From an uncultured SAR116 cluster alpha proteobacterium (GTDB lineage: Bacteria > Pseudomonadota > Alphaproteobacteria > Puniceispirillales > Marisalimonadaceae): 64,000 bases of DNA. The translations under genes and the position numbers were made by a program. Positions 23,421 to 50,310 of the stretch are shown here, piece after piece (positions within the stretch are counted from its first letter, which is position 1; every line of letters starts with the position of its first letter). The DNA is taken from positions 1-64,000 of the forward strand of contig CACBDG010000004.1 in NCBI GenBank assembly GCA_902537945.1. The letters are read 5' to 3'. Under the pieces are notes generated by a model. That model saw only the letters and a program-made list of their open reading frames with translations, was not told where the DNA came from and did no database searches.

Positions 23421-24833
23421 TTATAGGAAAAGTTTTCCTGGGTTCATTATTTTAAGAGGATCAAAAGCTTCTTTTACACTTTTCATAACATTTACAGCAT
23501 TACCTAACTCTTTAAGCATATATTTTCTTTTACCTTGGCCAACCCCATGTTCACCTGTGCATGTGCCATCCATTCTTATAGCTCTCTCAGATATTCTTAC
23601 TAAAAATTCATCTAACTTATCTAACTCAGTTTTGTTATTTTTATCAATTAAGAGTGCAACGTGAAAATTTCCATCTCCTGCGTGACTTACTATTGGACCT
23701 ATTAATTCATTTTGTTCCATATCCTCAATAGTTTCTGTAATACATTCCGATAATTTTGAAATAGGCACGCAGACATCCGTAGAATAAAGTTCTGCCTCTG
23801 GCCTTACAGCTCTACATGACCAATACGCATCATGCCTTGCTTTCCATAATTTATTTCTGTCCTCATTGTTAGAAGTCCATTCAAAATCTTTACCTCCAAA
23901 ATCAGATGATATCTCTCCAAATAATTCCGACTGTTCATCTACAGATGATTGACTTCCATGAAATTCTACCAATAATAATGGAGCTTCAGGAAGATTTGTT
24001 TTGGAATAATTATTAACAGCCTTTACCTGTGCTGTATCCATAAATTCTATTCTAGCAACCGGGATACCAGCTTGAATAGTCATTATAACCGCGTCAGTTG
24101 CATTTTTTACTGTTGGGAAACTTACTCTTCCGCCAGCTACAACTTCTGGAATACCATAGAGTTTGAGAGTAATTTCTGTCGTTATGCCCAAAGTCCCTTC
24201 AGAACCAACCATTAGCCTTGTTAAGTCATATCCAGCGGAACTTTTCCTTGCCTTATTTGCTGTTTTAATTATCTGACCGTCTGGAGTAACAACTTCCAAA
24301 GCTATGACATTGTCTTTCATTGTACCATAACGAACCGCATTTGTTCCTGAGGCTCGTGTAGCAGTCATTCCACCTATTGAGGCATTTGCCCCAGGATCAA
24401 TTGGAAAAAATAAACCTGTGTCTCTCAGGTATGTATTAAGCTGCTCTCTCGTTACACCTGGTTGAACAACAACTAGAAGGTCATCTTGATATACTTTCAA
24501 TATTTTGTTCATATTATTCATATCAATTGATATTCCACCAAAAGGTGCATTGAGATGCCCTTCGAAGGAAGAACCAACACCAAATGGTATAATTGGGCAC
24601 TTATATTCTTTACAAATATTTACAACTTTTTGAACATCCTCTTTTGTTTCAACAAATACAACACCATTTGGTAATTCAGATTCGTGTATTGTCATTGTAT
24701 GAGTGTGTTGTTCTAAAATACTCTGACTATCTGAAAATTGCTGTCCAAATTCTTCTTTTAACTTTTTTACACATAACTTGATACTTACAGGATCATAATT
24801 ATCTGAAGACCAAATTGAAGTATTACCATCCAT
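23421..24833 (-). CDS. FAD-binding oxidase (GlcD / D-lactate dehydrogenase-like), copy 1
   Basis: PIIPFGVGSSFEGHLNAPFGGISIDMNNMNKIL, VGSEGTLGITTEITLKLYGIPE, CTGEHGVGQGKRKYM. Confidence 0.92.
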   Translation of the reverse strand: MDGNTSIWSSDNYDPVSIKLCVKKLKEEFGQQFSDSQSILEQHTHTMTIHESELPNGVVFVETKEDVQKVVNICKEYKCPIIPFGVGSSFEGHLNAPFGGISIDMNNMNKILKVYQDDLLVVVQPGVTREQLNTYLRDTGLFFPIDPGANASIGGMTATRASGTNAVRYGTMKDNVIALEVVTPDGQIIKTANKARKSSAGYDLTRLMVGSEGTLGITTEITLKLYGIPEVVAGGRVSFPTVKNATDAVIMTIQAGIPVARIEFMDTAQVKAVNNYSKTNLPEAPLLLVEFHGSQSSVDEQSELFGEISSDFGGKDFEWTSNNEDRNKLWKARHDAYWSCRAVRPEAELYSTDVCVPISKLSECITETIEDMEQNELIGPIVSHAGDGNFHVALLIDKNNKTELDKLDEFLVRISERAIRMDGTCTGEHGVGQGKRKYMLKELGNAVNVMKSVKEAFDPLKIMNPGKLFL

Positions 24834-24865: not shown

Positions 24866-26281
24866 CTACAAAATTTTTCCAGGATTCATAATACCTTTGG
24901 GGTCTAATTCTTCCTTAATTAATTTCATAAAATTTACCGCAGAACCTAACTCCTCAATTAAATACTGTTTTTTACCTTGCCCTACTCCATGTTCACCTGT
25001 ACATGTGCCATCCATACTAATTGCTCTATGAGCTAATCTTTCTAAGAAACCGTTCGCAACATCAATTTCATTCTGGTCTTTGGGATCAATCATAAGTTGA
25101 ACATGAAAATTGCCGTCTCCAACATGACCAACAATAGGACCAAATAATTTATTTTGCTCCATATCTTCAATGGTTTCTGTAATGCATTCCGAGAGTCTTG
25201 AAATAGGTACACACACGTCTGTTGCAATGTAATCAGCCTCTGGTCTACATGCTTTTACAGCATAATAAACATCATGCCTAGCTTTCCATAATTTATTTCT
25301 TTCTTTAATATTAGCGTTCCACTCAAAATTATTCCCTCCAAAATCTTTAGAAATCTCGTTAAATAATTCTGACTGCTCTTTAACAGAAGATTTGCTTCCA
25401 TGAAACTCTAAAAGCAACAAAGGTGATTCTGGTAAACTCAATTTAGAATAATTATTAACTGCTTTAACTTGTGCAATGTCTAATAGTTCAATTCTAGCTA
25501 CTGGTATACCAGCTTGTATCGTCATGATAACTGCATCAGTTGCATCTTTAACAGAAGGGAACGTGCACCTGCCAGCTCCAATTTCCTCAGGTATGCCATA
25601 AAGTTTAAGAGTAATTTCAGTAATTACACCCAAAGTTCCTTCAGAACCAACAATTAATCTTGTTAAATCATATCCAGCTGAACTTTTTCTTGCTCTACTG
25701 GCAGTTTTTATTATCTCACCATTTGGCATAACAACTTCAAGAGATAAAACATTGTCTTTCATTGTACCATAACGAACTGCATTTGTTCCAGAGGCTCTAG
25801 TAGACGTCATTCCACCAATTGAAGCATTCGCGCCAGGATCAATAGGAAAAAATAAACCTGTATCTCTTAGATATGTATTAAGTTGTTCTCTTGTTACACC
25901 AGGTTGTACTACAACAGTAGAATCTTCAGGGTGAACTTCTATAATATTATTGAGATTGTTCATATCTATTGAAATCCCACCAAAATTGGCATTTAGGTGC
26001 CCCTCCAGAGAAGAACCTGCACCAAAGGGGATAATTGGGCAACCATGTTCGTGACAAATTTTTACAGTTTTTTGAACATCTTCTTTACTATATGCAAAAA
26101 CAACACCATCAGGCAATTCGGGTGTATGAACTGTAGTTGTGCTAGTATGTTGTTCACGAACTGATTTAGATATTGAAAATTGTTGACCAAATTCTTTTTT
26201 CAATGCCTCTATAGCTTTTTCAACATTATAATCAAATTTATTATAAAATGAGTTGTTCTTTATATCTAAGATTGTCACCAA
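24866..26281 (-). CDS. FAD-binding oxidase (GlcD / D-lactate dehydrogenase-like), copy 2, tandem paralog
   Basis: Near-collinear protein with 23421-24833 (shared LVVVQPGVTREQLNTYLRDTGLFFPIDPGANASIGGMT-like segment). Confidence 0.92.
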   Translation of the reverse strand: MVTILDIKNNSFYNKFDYNVEKAIEALKKEFGQQFSISKSVREQHTSTTTVHTPELPDGVVFAYSKEDVQKTVKICHEHGCPIIPFGAGSSLEGHLNANFGGISIDMNNLNNIIEVHPEDSTVVVQPGVTREQLNTYLRDTGLFFPIDPGANASIGGMTSTRASGTNAVRYGTMKDNVLSLEVVMPNGEIIKTASRARKSSAGYDLTRLIVGSEGTLGVITEITLKLYGIPEEIGAGRCTFPSVKDATDAVIMTIQAGIPVARIELLDIAQVKAVNNYSKLSLPESPLLLLEFHGSKSSVKEQSELFNEISKDFGGNNFEWNANIKERNKLWKARHDVYYAVKACRPEADYIATDVCVPISRLSECITETIEDMEQNKLFGPIVGHVGDGNFHVQLMIDPKDQNEIDVANGFLERLAHRAISMDGTCTGEHGVGQGKKQYLIEELGSAVNFMKLIKEELDPKGIMNPGKIL

Positions 26282-36737: not shown

Positions 36738-39700
36738 ATGAATATGTGGCAATTTTGGATAGATAGAGGTGGTACATTCACCGATATAGTAGCAAAAAAA
36801 CCTGATGGACAAATAATAATTGATAAGCTTTTATCTGAGAACTCTGACGCTTACAAAGATGCTGCAGTTGAAGGTATAAGAAGAATTCTTGAGCTCAAAA
36901 AAGATGACAAAATTCCTACAGATATTATTTCTTCAGTAAAAATGGGTACAACCGTTGCAACTAATGCCCTACTTGAAAGAAAAGGTGACAGAACTCTTCT
37001 ACTTATTACAAAAGGCTTTGGAGACTTATTAAGAATTGGTTATCAAAATAGACCTCTTTTGTTTGATCTAAATATTAAATTACCAGAATTGTTATACGAA
37101 AGAGTAGTAGAAGTATCAGAAAGATTAAATCAGAAAGGTGAAGTAGTTACTAAATTAAATGAGGAAGAAGTACGTAATTCACTAATCAAAGCAAAATCAG
37201 ATGGTATAAATAGTGTAGCTATTGCTTTTATGCATTCATATATAAATCCCGATCATGAAAATAAAATTGAACAAATTGCAAAAGAAGAAAATTTTAATCA
37301 AATTTCAGTAAGTCATAAAGTATCTCCACTAATTAAATTAGTTGGTAGAGGTGATACCACCGTAGTTGATGCTTATTTATCTCCAATTCTGAGACGGTAC
37401 GTAAATCAAGTTTCACAAGAACTTAAAGACACTAAATCTACTCAATTAATGTTTATGCAATCCAATGGAGGCCTCACAGACGCCAATCTTTTCCAAGGTA
37501 AAGATGCTTTATTATCTGGCCCAGCTGGAGGGGTTGTGAGTATGACACAAACCGGAAAGCAAGCGGGATTTAATAAATTAATTGGATTTGATATGGGCGG
37601 AACCTCCACAGATGTATGCCATTTTGCTGGTGAGTTTGAAAGATCGTTTGAAACTGAATTAGCAGGTGTAAGAATTAGAGCTCCTATGATGCAGATTAAC
37701 ACTGTGGCAGCAGGTGGTGGCTCAATTCTTTCTTATAAAGATGGTAGATTTCAAGTTGGTCCAGAGAGCGCTGGAGCAATTCCTGGTCCAGCATCATATG
37801 GTAGAGGTGGACCTTTAACTGTAACTGATTGCAATGTCTTATTAGGTAAATTAAATCCAGATTTTTTCCCAAAAGTTTTTGGGAAAACTGGTGATCAACC
37901 TTTAAATTTTGAAATTGTAAAGAAAAAGTTTTTGGAATTTTCAGATATAATTTCCAAAGAAAAAAATGAACCTATGATGGATATTTTTAAAATGGCTGAA
38001 GGTTTTTTAAAAATAGCTGTCGAAAATATGGCTAATGCAATTAAAAAAATATCAATTCAAAAAGGTTATGATGTAACAAATTATATGTTGAATTGCTTTG
38101 GAGGTGCAGGCGGGCAACATGCATGTAATGTTGCTGATTCTCTTGGCATTTCAAATGTTATGATACATCCATATGCTGGGGTTTTATCTGCTTACGGAAT
38201 GGGCCTTGCTGAAATTAGAAGTATTAGGGAAGGTCATTTTGAAAAAAATATCACAAATATTTTAGACGCTGATAACTTAATTGAAATCTTATCTTTACAA
38301 GCAAAAAAAGATCTAAATGATCAAGATATCTCTGATGCTTCAATTATTCTCTTAAAAAATGCTTTTTTGCATTATAAAGGTTCACATCAAAATTTAGAAA
38401 TCAAATTTGATACACCTGATAATATGAGAAAATCTTTTGAACAAGAACATAAAAAACGCTTTGGTTTTTTTGTTGAAGATAGAGAAATATTTATTGAAAT
38501 GCTAACTGTTGAAGCAGTAGGTAAAAAAACAGAAAACTATGATTTTTTAAATCCTAACACATCAACTACAAAGGCAAATCCCATTGCATTCAAAAAAATG
38601 TATGTAAATGGCTCAGAAATTAATACACCAATCTATAAAAGGGATGAATTAATAATTGGCCAGAATATTTCAGGTCCAGCTATTATTGTAGAAGCAACAG
38701 GTACTAACATAATTGATGATGGTTGGTCTGGAACTTTAGACAAGCATTATAATTTGATTTTATCTAGAGTAGAAGAAAAGAAACTTCAAAAAGGAATAGG
38801 AACATCCGTAGATGTTGTAATGCTTGAAGTATTTAACAATCTTTTTATGAATATTGCAGAACAAATGGGTGCAACGTTAGCAAACACTGCTTATTCAGTG
38901 AATATAAAAGAAAGATTAGATTTTTCATGTGCTCTTTTTAATAATGAAGGATCTTTAGTTGCTAATGCCCCTCATGTTCCAGTTCATTTAGGATCTATGT
39001 CAGAGGCAATAAAAACAGTAGTTAGGTTAAACAAAGATAATATTTATCCAGAGGATGTTTTTGTACTCAACGCCCCATTTAATGGTGGAACACATCTTCC
39101 AGATGTAACGGTGATAACTCCAGTTTTTGATAAAAATGGAAAAGAAATTATATTTTTTGTTGCCTCTCGTGGTCATCATGCCGACATAGGAGGTAAAACA
39201 CCAGGTTCTGGTCCACCAGACTCAAAGCATATTGAAGAAGAAGGTGTATTGATTGATAATTTTAAGTTGTTTGACAAAGGTATATTTCGTGAGCAAGAAA
39301 TGAGAAAAATCTTATCATCAGGTAAGTATCCATGTCGAAATATTGAGCATAATATGGCAGATCTTGCAGCTCAAGTTGCAGCAAACAAAACAGGTATTCA
39401 TGAAATTAATTCAATGATTGACCAATTTGGCATTGAAACTGTGCATGCCTACATGAACCATGTACAAGATAATGCAGAAGAAAGTATACGTAATGCCATA
39501 GTTAATTTAAAACCAGGTGAATATGAGTATGAGCTTGATAATGGTGAGTTCATAAGAGTTAATGTTAAAATTGATAAAAAAAATCGTGAGGCTATAATTG
39601 ATTTTACAGGCACAGCTCCCAAAAATCCTTTCAATTATAATGCCCCAATGGCAGTATGTTATGCTGTAATTTTATATGTATTTAGAACATTAGTTGGAAA

Positions 39701-40337
39701 TAATATTCCACTTAATGAAGGATGTTTTAAACCAATCAAAATCATTATACCAAATAATTCAATGATAAATGCAAAGTACCCATCTGCAGTGATAGCCGGC
39801 AATACAGAAGTAAGTCAATTGACATGCAACGCATTATTTGGAGCACTAGGAGTGATTGCTGGTAGTCAAGCAACCATGAATAATTTTATCTGGGGAAATG
39901 ACACAATACAAAATTATGAAACCATTTGTGGAGGAACTGGTGCTGGTCCTAACTTTCATGGAACGTCAGCTATTCAAACTCATATGACTAATACTAGAAG
40001 CACTGATCCTGAGGTATTAGAAACTCGTTTTCCAGTAAGACTTGAAGAATTTTCAATAAGAAAAAATTCTGGTGGAAAAGGTAAATTTAATGGAGGAGAT
40101 GGAGTAACCAGAAAACTTAGATTTTTAGAGCCAATGATAGTAACAACATTATGTTCACATAGGAGAGTGAAACCATTTGGTTTGAATGGAGGTAGTCCAG
40201 GGGATTGCGGTAAAGAATGGCTTGAAAGAACTGACGGTAGTATTTTAAAATTGAATGGTAACGATAGTTGTGAAGTTGAACCGAATGACTTATTTGTAAT
40301 GCAAACACCTGGTGGTGGTGGTTTTGGTGAAAAATAA
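36738..40337 (+). CDS. Hydantoinase/5-oxoprolinase, fused HyuA-HyuB
   Basis: 1199 aa; [18 protein letters not shown] start, [12 protein letters not shown], then HyuB part [30 protein letters not shown] end. Confidence 0.93.
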
Positions 40338-40347
40338 TTTATAAATA

Positions 40348-40857
40348 CTAAAAACTTTTATTCGCGTGAATAATACCATTTTGAATATGTTCTTCTAATA
40401 CCATTTGTGCCTTTTTAAAATTTCTTTCAAGACTATAATCCAATAGTTTTTTATGTTCCTTAACCGAACCACTCCCTCTAAAAGTTAATACCAATAATTG
40501 ATATCTCAAATATTTATCAAAAATTAATTTGTGAAGTTCAATTAAGTTCTTTGAATTACAATTTCTTACTAATGTTTGATGAAATTCACTATCATATCTT
40601 TTCCAATTGCTTCTTTCTTCAGTTTTGTTTTTTAATAATTTATTTTCATAAAGTTTTAATTTATGGTGTGCTGCAAGTAAAGATCCTTCCCAATCGGGAT
40701 TTGAGTTTTCTAAGGAATATTTTAATGCGTGACTTTCAATTAAAATTCTTAGATTTGCTATTTCTTTTAAATCAGACTCAGAAACTGGTGAAACATAAAA
40801 TCCCTTTTGTTCTTCATAAACAACAAAGCCATCACTAGACAATCTACTTAAAATTTC
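40348..40857 (-). pseudogene. GntR-family (FCD domain) regulator remnant lacking the N-terminal wHTH
   Basis: Translation (stop)-F-L-EILSRLSSDGFVVYEEQKGFYVSPVSESDLKEIANLRILIE...: enters at the end of the GntR recognition region and continues into a complete-looking FCD domain; upstream in-frame stop at 40864-40866. Confidence 0.82.
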
Positions 40858-41101
40858 TAAAAATTATTATGATGATATTGAAGCAAGATTTGGTTTGGAT
40901 TATGAATTTTGTAAAGAGCTTGAAGGGCTCAACATTTTATATGATGAAGATGATAGTGGATCTTTTCTACAAATTTATAGTCCAGTATTTAATGATAATT
41001 TTTTCTTTGAGTTTGTGCAGAGAATAAATGATTATAAAGGATATGGTGCAATTAACGCTTTATTTAGAATTGCAGCACAAAAATATGCAAATAATAATTA
41101 A
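40847..41101 (+). pseudogene. C-terminal remnant of a QuiC/HPPD-like protein (3-dehydroshikimate dehydratase / 4-hydroxyphenylpyruvate dioxygenase-like domain)
   Basis: Frame through 40862 reads NYYDDIEARFGLDYEFCKELEGLNILYDEDDSGSFLQIYSPVFNDNFFFEFVQRINDYKGYGAINALFRIAAQKYANNN, matching the recalled C-terminal pattern NYYDDL.ARF..LN(I)LYD.D..G.F..(Y)...F....FFFE.VQR..GY.GYGA.NA..R.AAQ. Confidence 0.78.
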
Positions 41102-42840
41102 ATTTTTTTAATGAAACTTAATAACTTACTCTTAATAACCTCATCTTGAATATGGAATCTATCTACAGCTTGGTCCCAATCAGTTTTTTCAAACTCACTT
41201 TTTAAAACTTTATATTCTTTACTCATTTCTAAATCTTGTTTTAATTGCGACCTTGAATATAGTATTAAAGCAATAGATCTTGGGTCCATCACACTTATAT
41301 CAAAACTTAATTCAACTACTTTATTATAATCCTCTGCAAAAAAATAACCAAGAACTAAGTCTTTTACTCTGTTATCAGATGACGACTGACCTTGAGGAAT
41401 TGGGTCAAGCTCATATGCTTTATTAAGTAATTCTAAACCTTTATCAACCTTTCCTGTTCTTACTAAAACTTCACCATATCCAGATAGCACTCTTGGATCG
41501 TTTGGAACCATATTAAATGCTTTTTTTCCATGATCTTCCGCTAAAACATAATCATGATTACTTAAATAAACTGCAGATAACATTCTATGACATTCAAAAT
41601 CATTCTCATTTAATTCTAGAGCTTTATCTATATTTTGTTTAGCTTCTGCAAAAATTTCTTCAGGATTCTGATCTGAAAAACCCCTAAACATTGCTTGGCC
41701 CAGAGTACAACATTTCCAAGCATATGCCTGAGCATTATTAGCATCTGCTTCAATGGCCTTGTCGAAGTTTTTTAATGCCTCCTGACATGCTTCTTTTGTA
41801 AATTTATGATGATTTTCTTTCCCTCTTAATAAATATTCATATGAACTTATATTCTCAGTAGGCTTTCTTTTTGATCTTTGCAACGAACTAATTTCAATCT
41901 CTCCTAGTAGAGCGATTGAAATTTTTCTAACTATTTCGTCCTGTAAATCAAAAATATCTTCAAGAACCCTGTCATATTTGTTACTCCAGATAATACTATC
42001 ATCTTTCGCATCACTTAATTCGATAATTATTCTTACTCTTTTACCAGAAGCACGGATGCCTCCTGTCACAATAAAATCTAAATCGAATTTCTTTGAAAAT
42101 TCTTTTATGTCTTGATTTTTATCTTTGAAATTAACGGTTGTTTGTCTTGAAAGGATTTCGAATTCACGCATCATAGAAAATTCTGTAATTAAATCCTCAA
42201 CAATGCCATCTACCAAGAAACCACTATCCTCATCTTTACTGGTATTCACAAAAGGTAAAATTGCAAATTTTGGTTTTTTATTAAGATTTTTATTTGAGAT
42301 ATTTTTTATTTTATTTTTTCCATCACCAAGTAAAGAAAAAACTTCGAAATTATTTGAAATATTTTTCAACTCAATTTTACCTAGAGGATGAATAGTCTCT
42401 TCAATTTTATTATAAATTTGCTGCCTTACTACATCTGAAATTAAAATTTCTCCAACTGGTGATTGACTCTCAAGACGAGCAGCTATATTTACACCATTTC
42501 CATAAATGTTATCACCTTCAATTATGATATCGTCTAAATGGATCCCTACTCTCCAAGATAATTTAGGATTTTTATCCTCTTTTAAATTCCTATCTCTAAT
42601 AGATTTTTGAAATTCAACACCTGCTTTTGTGGCTCCCACTGGACTATCAAATTCAGCTATTATTGAGTCACCAGCAGTATGGAAAATTCTACCAGAAAAT
42701 TTATTTATTATTGGATCAATGATATCTCTACATTCTTTTAAACTGTTTAGTGTTTTTTCTTCTTGGGATTCCATATGCTTACTGAAATCAACACAGTCAG
42801 TTGCTAATATAGTTGCTAATCTTCTTTTAACTTCAGACAT
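41098..42840 (-). CDS. Class III adenylate/guanylate cyclase domain protein with TolB-like and TPR C-terminal region
   Basis: RRLATILATDCVDFSKHMES, IFHTAGDSIIAEFDSPVGATKAGVEFQ, RVGIHLDDIIIEGDNIYGNGVNIAARLES; then FAILPFVNTSKDEDSGFLVDGIVEDL and TPR-like repeats. Confidence 0.9.
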   Translation of the reverse strand: MSEVKRRLATILATDCVDFSKHMESQEEKTLNSLKECRDIIDPIINKFSGRIFHTAGDSIIAEFDSPVGATKAGVEFQKSIRDRNLKEDKNPKLSWRVGIHLDDIIIEGDNIYGNGVNIAARLESQSPVGEILISDVVRQQIYNKIEETIHPLGKIELKNISNNFEVFSLLGDGKNKIKNISNKNLNKKPKFAILPFVNTSKDEDSGFLVDGIVEDLITEFSMMREFEILSRQTTVNFKDKNQDIKEFSKKFDLDFIVTGGIRASGKRVRIIIELSDAKDDSIIWSNKYDRVLEDIFDLQDEIVRKISIALLGEIEISSLQRSKRKPTENISSYEYLLRGKENHHKFTKEACQEALKNFDKAIEADANNAQAYAWKCCTLGQAMFRGFSDQNPEEIFAEAKQNIDKALELNENDFECHRMLSAVYLSNHDYVLAEDHGKKAFNMVPNDPRVLSGYGEVLVRTGKVDKGLELLNKAYELDPIPQGQSSSDNRVKDLVLGYFFAEDYNKVVELSFDISVMDPRSIALILYSRSQLKQDLEMSKEYKVLKSEFEKTDWDQAVDRFHIQDEVIKSKLLSFIKKI

Positions 42841-49205: not shown

Positions 49206-49766
49206 TTGATGTTTAATAAATTTTGTTTAATTTTCACACTAATTATTCTTTCATATTCTAACTTAGTATACTCAAATCCCAAAAACACAATTGGGGAAGA
49301 TCAAAAAACTATAAATATATTGAATAATTATTTTTCAAAACAAACTATTGTAGGAAAAGCTAATTTTCAATTTCTTTTTTGGAATATGTATGATGCAAAA
49401 CTTGTAAGTGAAAGTGGCAGCTATCCCTCAGATAAGTTTGCTTTAATTTTAAAATATAATAAAAATTTTTCCAAAAAAAGTGTTGTTGACGAAACCATCA
49501 ATCAACTAAAAAAGCAAAAAACATTCAATGAAAAAGAATTAAAAGAAATTAATGCTTTATTAAATAAAGCATTCAGAGAGATAAAGAAAAATAATAAATT
49601 CATAGGTATCAAAAATAACGATGAAGCAATATTTTATTTCCAAAATGAAAAAGTATTAGAAACTGACAACTCTGAGTTTATAAAGATTTTTTTTGATATT
49701 TGGTTAAGAGAAAATAGTCAAAACCCAAAATTCACTCAAGAATTGTTGGGAAAAACTAGAGGATAG
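49206..49766 (+). CDS. Chalcone isomerase-like domain protein (secreted)
   Basis: Signal peptide; GKANFQFLFWNMYDAKLVSESGSYPSDKFALILKYNKNFSKKSVVDETINQLKKQ. Confidence 0.75.
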   Translation: MMFNKFCLIFTLIILSYSNLVYSNPKNTIGEDQKTINILNNYFSKQTIVGKANFQFLFWNMYDAKLVSESGSYPSDKFALILKYNKNFSKKSVVDETINQLKKQKTFNEKELKEINALLNKAFREIKKNNKFIGIKNNDEAIFYFQNEKVLETDNSEFIKIFFDIWLRENSQNPKFTQELLGKTRG

Positions 49767-49770
49767 TTAC

Positions 49771-50310
49771 GTGCGATTAAGTGCATTTTTTTTTGAAATT
49801 GTACCTTTATCAGGTTTTTTTTTAGGAGCGCAATATTACACTTTAATTGTTGCTGCTATCATATCACTAATTCTTGGTCTTATGGTTATGCTAGTGTTCT
49901 ATGTCATAGAAAAACGCATATCCAAATTTCAAATATTTGGAATTTGCATGTCTGCTCTTTTTACTTTTTTTGCATATTCTTTTAATGACGATGAGTTTGT
50001 AAAAATTCAACCAACAATTTTTAATGGCTTTTTTAGTGCTGTTTTACTTTTTGGCATATTTTATAAGAAGGCAATGATGAAACAATTTTTTGGATCTCAA
50101 TTTTCTCTTAATGATGAAACCTGGTATAAACTTAGTTTGAGATGGGGTTTGTTTTTTTTATTTCTTACAATTATAAATGAAATATCTTGGAGGTTTCTTG
50201 AAACTGAGGATTGGGTTTTTATCAAAGTTTTTGTATTATCGCCTTTAGTTGGAATTTTTATGTTGTGCCAGTTGCCAATTACATTAAAAGGAAGAATTAA
50301 AACCAAATAA
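49771..50310 (+). CDS. Septation protein IspZ/YciB-like membrane protein
   Basis: KIQPTIFNGFFSAVLLFGIFYKKAMMKQFFGSQFSLNDETWYKLSLRWGLFFLFLTIINEISWRFLETEDWVFIKVF; GTG start. Confidence 0.85.
   Translation: MRLSAFFFEIVPLSGFFLGAQYYTLIVAAIISLILGLMVMLVFYVIEKRISKFQIFGICMSALFTFFAYSFNDDEFVKIQPTIFNGFFSAVLLFGIFYKKAMMKQFFGSQFSLNDETWYKLSLRWGLFFLFLTIINEISWRFLETEDWVFIKVFVLSPLVGIFMLCQLPITLKGRIKTK

Follow-up and report, generated by a model that had tools for sequence, protein, structure and literature searches.

A probable 1,804-bp deletion between 12-bp direct repeats truncates a divergent gntR/quiC-like gene pair in a SAR116 alphaproteobacterium

QuiC1 and QsuB are two-domain 3-dehydroshikimate dehydratases. 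According to PMC7442255, an N-terminal xylose-isomerase-like barrel is joined to a C-terminal HPPD-like domain, and in the characterised QuiC relatives it is the N-terminal domain that provides the dehydratase. Regulators of the FCD (FadR) subfamily of the GntR family combine a GntR wHTH with an FCD domain. Close relatives of the SAR116 genome studied here encode intact proteins of both kinds. Their QuiC-like protein has 605 aa, with AP_endonuc_2 at aa 20-261 followed by HPPD-like glyoxalase domains. Their GntR/FCD regulator has 217 aa, for which a domain search placed PF00392 at aa 10-70 and FCD at aa 80-207. In contrast, the window (the whole 64,000-nucleotide stretch that was analysed) retains just the last 83-84 aa of the former and a copy of the latter that has lost its first 48 aa and no longer matches the GntR domain. 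The nearest NCBIfam model of the regulator is CsiR, yet identity as CsiR itself was ruled out, all NCBIfam matches being below cut-off. The label quiC-like is an assignment from homology: even the intact relative, at 561 bits, stays below the NCBIfam QuiC cut-off of 1200.

Protein searches for both pieces covered 101 genomes, 100 of them relatives and one the window's own, and the congeneric comparison comprised 40 genomes including the window's own, with one genome per species. An intact divergent gntR/quiC pair, sought at the position of the remnants, was found in five close congeners (G011, G014, G017, G018 and G019). The gene order in these five is hydantoinase A/B > < GntR QuiC > < cyclase/TPR, and the window has the same order (Table 1). 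In the more distant congeners G013, G022, G036 and G028 quiC and the same gntR are also neighbours or near neighbours, and some other Alphaproteobacteria, including other SAR116 genomes, keep both genes linked as well. Since the intact pair occurs in close and more distant relatives, it represents the ancestral arrangement and the truncated state of the window the derived one. Within the gntR-quiC intergenic region of intact relatives a doubled ATATCATATATT-like motif is conserved across nine genomes, approximately 15-55 bp upstream of the quiC start (e.g. L059). It is a possible operator, which is gone from the window.

Table 1. Positions in the window of the junction, the two remnants and their intact neighbours
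Feature	Position	Strand	Description
hydantoinase/5-oxoprolinase A+B fusion, intact neighbour	36738..40337	+	1199 aa, syntenic in relatives
gntR remnant	40351..40857	-	aa 49-217 of GntR/FCD regulator: FCD ligand domain and end of wHTH; stop codon 40348-40350
deletion junction	40847..40858	.	one remaining copy of 12-bp direct repeat CTTAAAATTTCT; copies 1,804 bp apart in intact relatives
quiC remnant	40847..41101	+	C-terminal HPPD-like domain (last 83-84 aa) from 605-aa two-domain QuiC-like protein; native stop kept
adenylate/guanylate-cyclase-domain plus TPR protein, intact neighbour	41098..42840	-	580 aa, syntenic in relatives

Several further features were noted away from this locus. Just past the window (G000:C4:69342-86262) collinearity with G017 stops at C4 69342, and the order of the segments C4 74609-76229 and 77341-80367 is swapped relative to this genome. 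A genomic island is one possible explanation for the region C4 69342-86262, a misjoin in one of the two assemblies another. In the window, positions 23428-24761 and 24870-26203 are adjacent paralogous stretches of about 75% DNA identity, both kept in relatives, with the second lying within a 471-aa FAD-linked-oxidase-like gene. A repetitive CATGACGACCATGA-type tract at 2620-2650 varies in length (27-67 bp) between relatives. The stretch 1976-2262 is diverged or replaced when compared with G011 and G018, though not with G019, which suggests recombination among sister lineages. At 49206-50310 two genes have many private changes in the relative G014 (27 synonymous/73 non-synonymous and 33/23), which suggests that its counterpart is an allele imported into G014.

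Reading leftward, the minus strand from 40857 to 40351 translates to EILSRLSSDGFVVYEEQKGFYVSPVS... An in-frame stop precedes it by a few codons, at 40864-40866. The translation matches Pfam FCD (PF07729) at 9.5e-14, while a domain search of the remnant for the GntR DNA-binding domain (wHTH, PF00392) gave no match. The missing first 48 aa make up most of the helix-turn-helix domain. Translation and domain search thus bear out the sequence-only reading of a truncated leftward GntR gene that keeps FCD, lacks the wHTH and is preceded by an in-frame stop. DNA binding by the remnant cannot be expected.

On the plus strand the frame from 40847/40850 reads LKISKNYYDDIEARFGL...AAQKYANNN-stop, with the stop codon at 41099-41101. 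This piece aligns only to 547-627 of the 635 positions in the QuiC model and to the C-terminus of the HPPD model, in agreement with the earlier assignment to the C-terminal ~80 aa of a QuiC/HPPD-like protein without its N-terminal part. What is lost are the N-terminal ~520 aa including the whole AP_endonuc_2 dehydratase domain. A stand-alone conserved gene of 80 aa was rejected: in the 101 genomes searched, homologues of the 83-aa piece lie inside long frames, mostly of 603-701 aa, in 25 other genomes. Shorter homologue frames are few and are located at contig ends or broken otherwise.

DNA alignment of the window with the five relatives is collinear up to 40858 and restarts at 40847, such that the two parts overlap by 12 bases. 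In all five relatives the distance between the boundary points exceeds that in the window by exactly 1,804 bp. Perfect copies of CTTAAAATTTCT stand at both ends in G011, G014, G018 and G019, and G017 has one mismatch per copy. The short homology at the junction that had been proposed from the window is therefore confirmed by the ancestral-type sequences, with a corrected extent of 12 bp (one base more than had been given). When breakpoint pairs 1-3 kb apart are drawn at random from the G011 sequence, they share at least 12 bp at a frequency of only 5e-6; it is therefore very probable that the deletion mechanism made use of the homology. We put the probability that a single 1,804-bp genomic deletion between 12-bp direct repeats truncated both genes in this lineage at roughly three in four. 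That one deletion lies behind both remnants, as the sequence-only reading held, is supported by the five relatives, whose intact pair is converted to the window state by a single loss of this length.

The deletion would have started from a divergent pair of a leftward gntR/FCD gene and a rightward quiC-like 3-dehydroshikimate dehydratase gene, each with a copy of CTTAAAATTTCT inside. Loss of one copy and everything between would remove the 48 N-terminal aa of GntR, both 5' ends, the shared promoter/operator region and ~520 N-terminal aa of QuiC. The route was likely misalignment or annealing of the short direct repeats in replication or repair, presumably of the RecA-independent type. Neither remnant would keep a promoter, its native start codon or its key domain, and we take both to be fresh pseudogenes.

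Direct repeats of this size are frequent: at 0.5-5 kb spacing we counted 217 pairs of at least 12 bp in 69 kb of a relative (32% GC DNA). A deletion hotspot is not supported, as equally long repeats are common in this AT-rich DNA. The same count bears on an assembly collapse over the 12-bp repeat that would involve no chimeric molecule. Such a collapse draws on the repeat being perfect and direct in relatives, but it would then occur everywhere, and 12 bp is shorter than the k-mers of SPAdes-type assemblers. We consider it very improbable. Assembly collapse had been named beforehand as the main alternative to a deletion; an artefact is indeed worth considering, but in its simple form collapse is unlikely. 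With a repeat shorter than the usual k-mers, the artefact to consider is a physical chimeric molecule from single-cell amplification.

Such a chimera would arise while phi29 amplifies the DNA of a single cell: a displaced 3' end with CTTAAAATTTCT would have primed anew at the other copy, 1.8 kb off; the chimeric molecule, locally dominant, would then have been assembled, while the cell's own genome was intact. Several observations point indirectly to a single-cell source. Those relatives that carry names are SAR116 isolates of single-cell type, for example AG-896-N20, AG-897-B18 and AG-390-M08, and SCGC AAA536-G10 itself; the closest of them are 'AG-' isolates. In a SAR116 survey the subclade with family AAA536-G10 consists nearly entirely of SAGs (86, and 4 MAGs; PMC8547437). 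The last two contigs of the window's own assembly, 2,194 and 2,334 bp long, fit the >2,000-bp length filter of SCGC (PMC5519541), which would drop a 1.8-kb orphan piece too. The relatives, the SAG-dominated family and the last contigs just above 2 kb together make a single amplified genome the probable source of the window. With its genus in a group known almost solely from such genomes, amplification is not negligible as a source of the junction. The 12-nt homology lies within the 2-21 nt on which MDA chimeras prime (PMC1855051), and SCGC assemblies of benchmark strains contained 1.5 misassemblies per 100 kb (PMC11247762).

The geometry of the join speaks against amplification. MDA chimeras were inverted in 85% of cases, with 337 inverted ones under 10 kb, while direct joins under 10 kb, the class of the window's join, amounted to just 11/475, i.e. 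2.3% (PMC1855051). A comparison of the window with G019 over 64 kb revealed neither inverted joins, the dominant MDA class, nor other gross rearrangements; this point is weakened as assemblers may remove inverted chimeras more readily. Furthermore, the deleted DNA is on no contig of the own assembly. The missing 1.8 kb was not found there by DNA search, nor were the first 521 aa of QuiC by protein search, in which all five control genomes were positive. Translocation in place of deletion was rejected on the same grounds. It also counts against a chimera that we infer the SAG origin of the source. Overall, we regard an amplification chimera as unlikely, though a serious candidate, and prefer the genomic deletion.

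The junction is private to this genome. Among the 40 congeneric genomes the 301-bp junction region had a full-length match only in the window's own; the other 39 gave separate pieces, weak matches or no match in place of the continuous junction. An older deletion common to the genus was rejected accordingly. The remnants themselves contain no stops, frameshifts or clear decay. Private codon changes on the window's branch were 7 synonymous and 5 non-synonymous in the remnants, against 227 and 78 in the compared flanking genes; in a binomial test the remnants' excess of amino-acid changes falls short of significance (P = 0.17). A fully neutral history fits poorly (P = 0.014, for an assumed non-synonymous share of 0.75, which is an approximation). 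The four private residues in GntR are all ones that homologues also have. An old pseudogene pair is unsupported, with neither stops or frameshifts nor a significant excess of amino-acid changes. The missing decay argues that the event was recent relative to the branch, or else not biological: the pattern fits a very young deletion and is equally compatible with an artefact such as a chimera.

Both frames are open and conserved, as they would be if the remnants were functional stand-alone genes, one for a sensor made of FCD alone and one for a small peptide of HPPD-like type. Yet homologues are full length and no other congeneric genome compared shares the deletion. A search for new promoters found promoter-like sites at the junction to be no more frequent than in shuffled sequence. 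We hardly give functional stand-alone genes any credit.

A genomic deletion predicts the loss of the step from 3-dehydroshikimate to protocatechuate, while downstream ring cleavage would still be encoded. Intradiol dioxygenase genes (PF00775, two adjacent matches, protocatechuate dioxygenase-like) are present elsewhere in the own genome and likewise in relatives. Protocatechuate that does not stem from this step could thus still be put to use. In a speculative and improbable extension, the junction would mark true presence/absence variation at the population level: streamlined low-GC SAR116 would have lost the entry step from dehydroshikimate to protocatechuate locally, through selection, and kept the downstream ring-cleavage genes.

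The locus offers a clean case in which one small deletion disables a regulator together with its divergent neighbour, and close relatives still show both repeats and the sequence of ancestral type. Recent gene loss and amplification chimeras are hard to separate where nearly all genomes of a group come from single cells, and pseudogene catalogues of such genomes need a read-level check. The event itself would be of an ordinary kind, a gene-loss scar or possibly a single-cell DNA amplification artefact. With phi29/MDA chimeras in SAGs (Lasken and Stockwell 2007, PMC1855051) it shares the 12-nt homology, segments <10 kb apart and a probable single-cell source, but its join is direct and not inverted, inversion being typical of these chimeras (85%) though not obligatory. 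With bacterial deletions between short direct repeats, attributed to slipped misalignment or single-strand annealing, we found no difference: two copies in the intact relatives, one at the junction and an interval precisely lost make the locus an ordinary case of this class.
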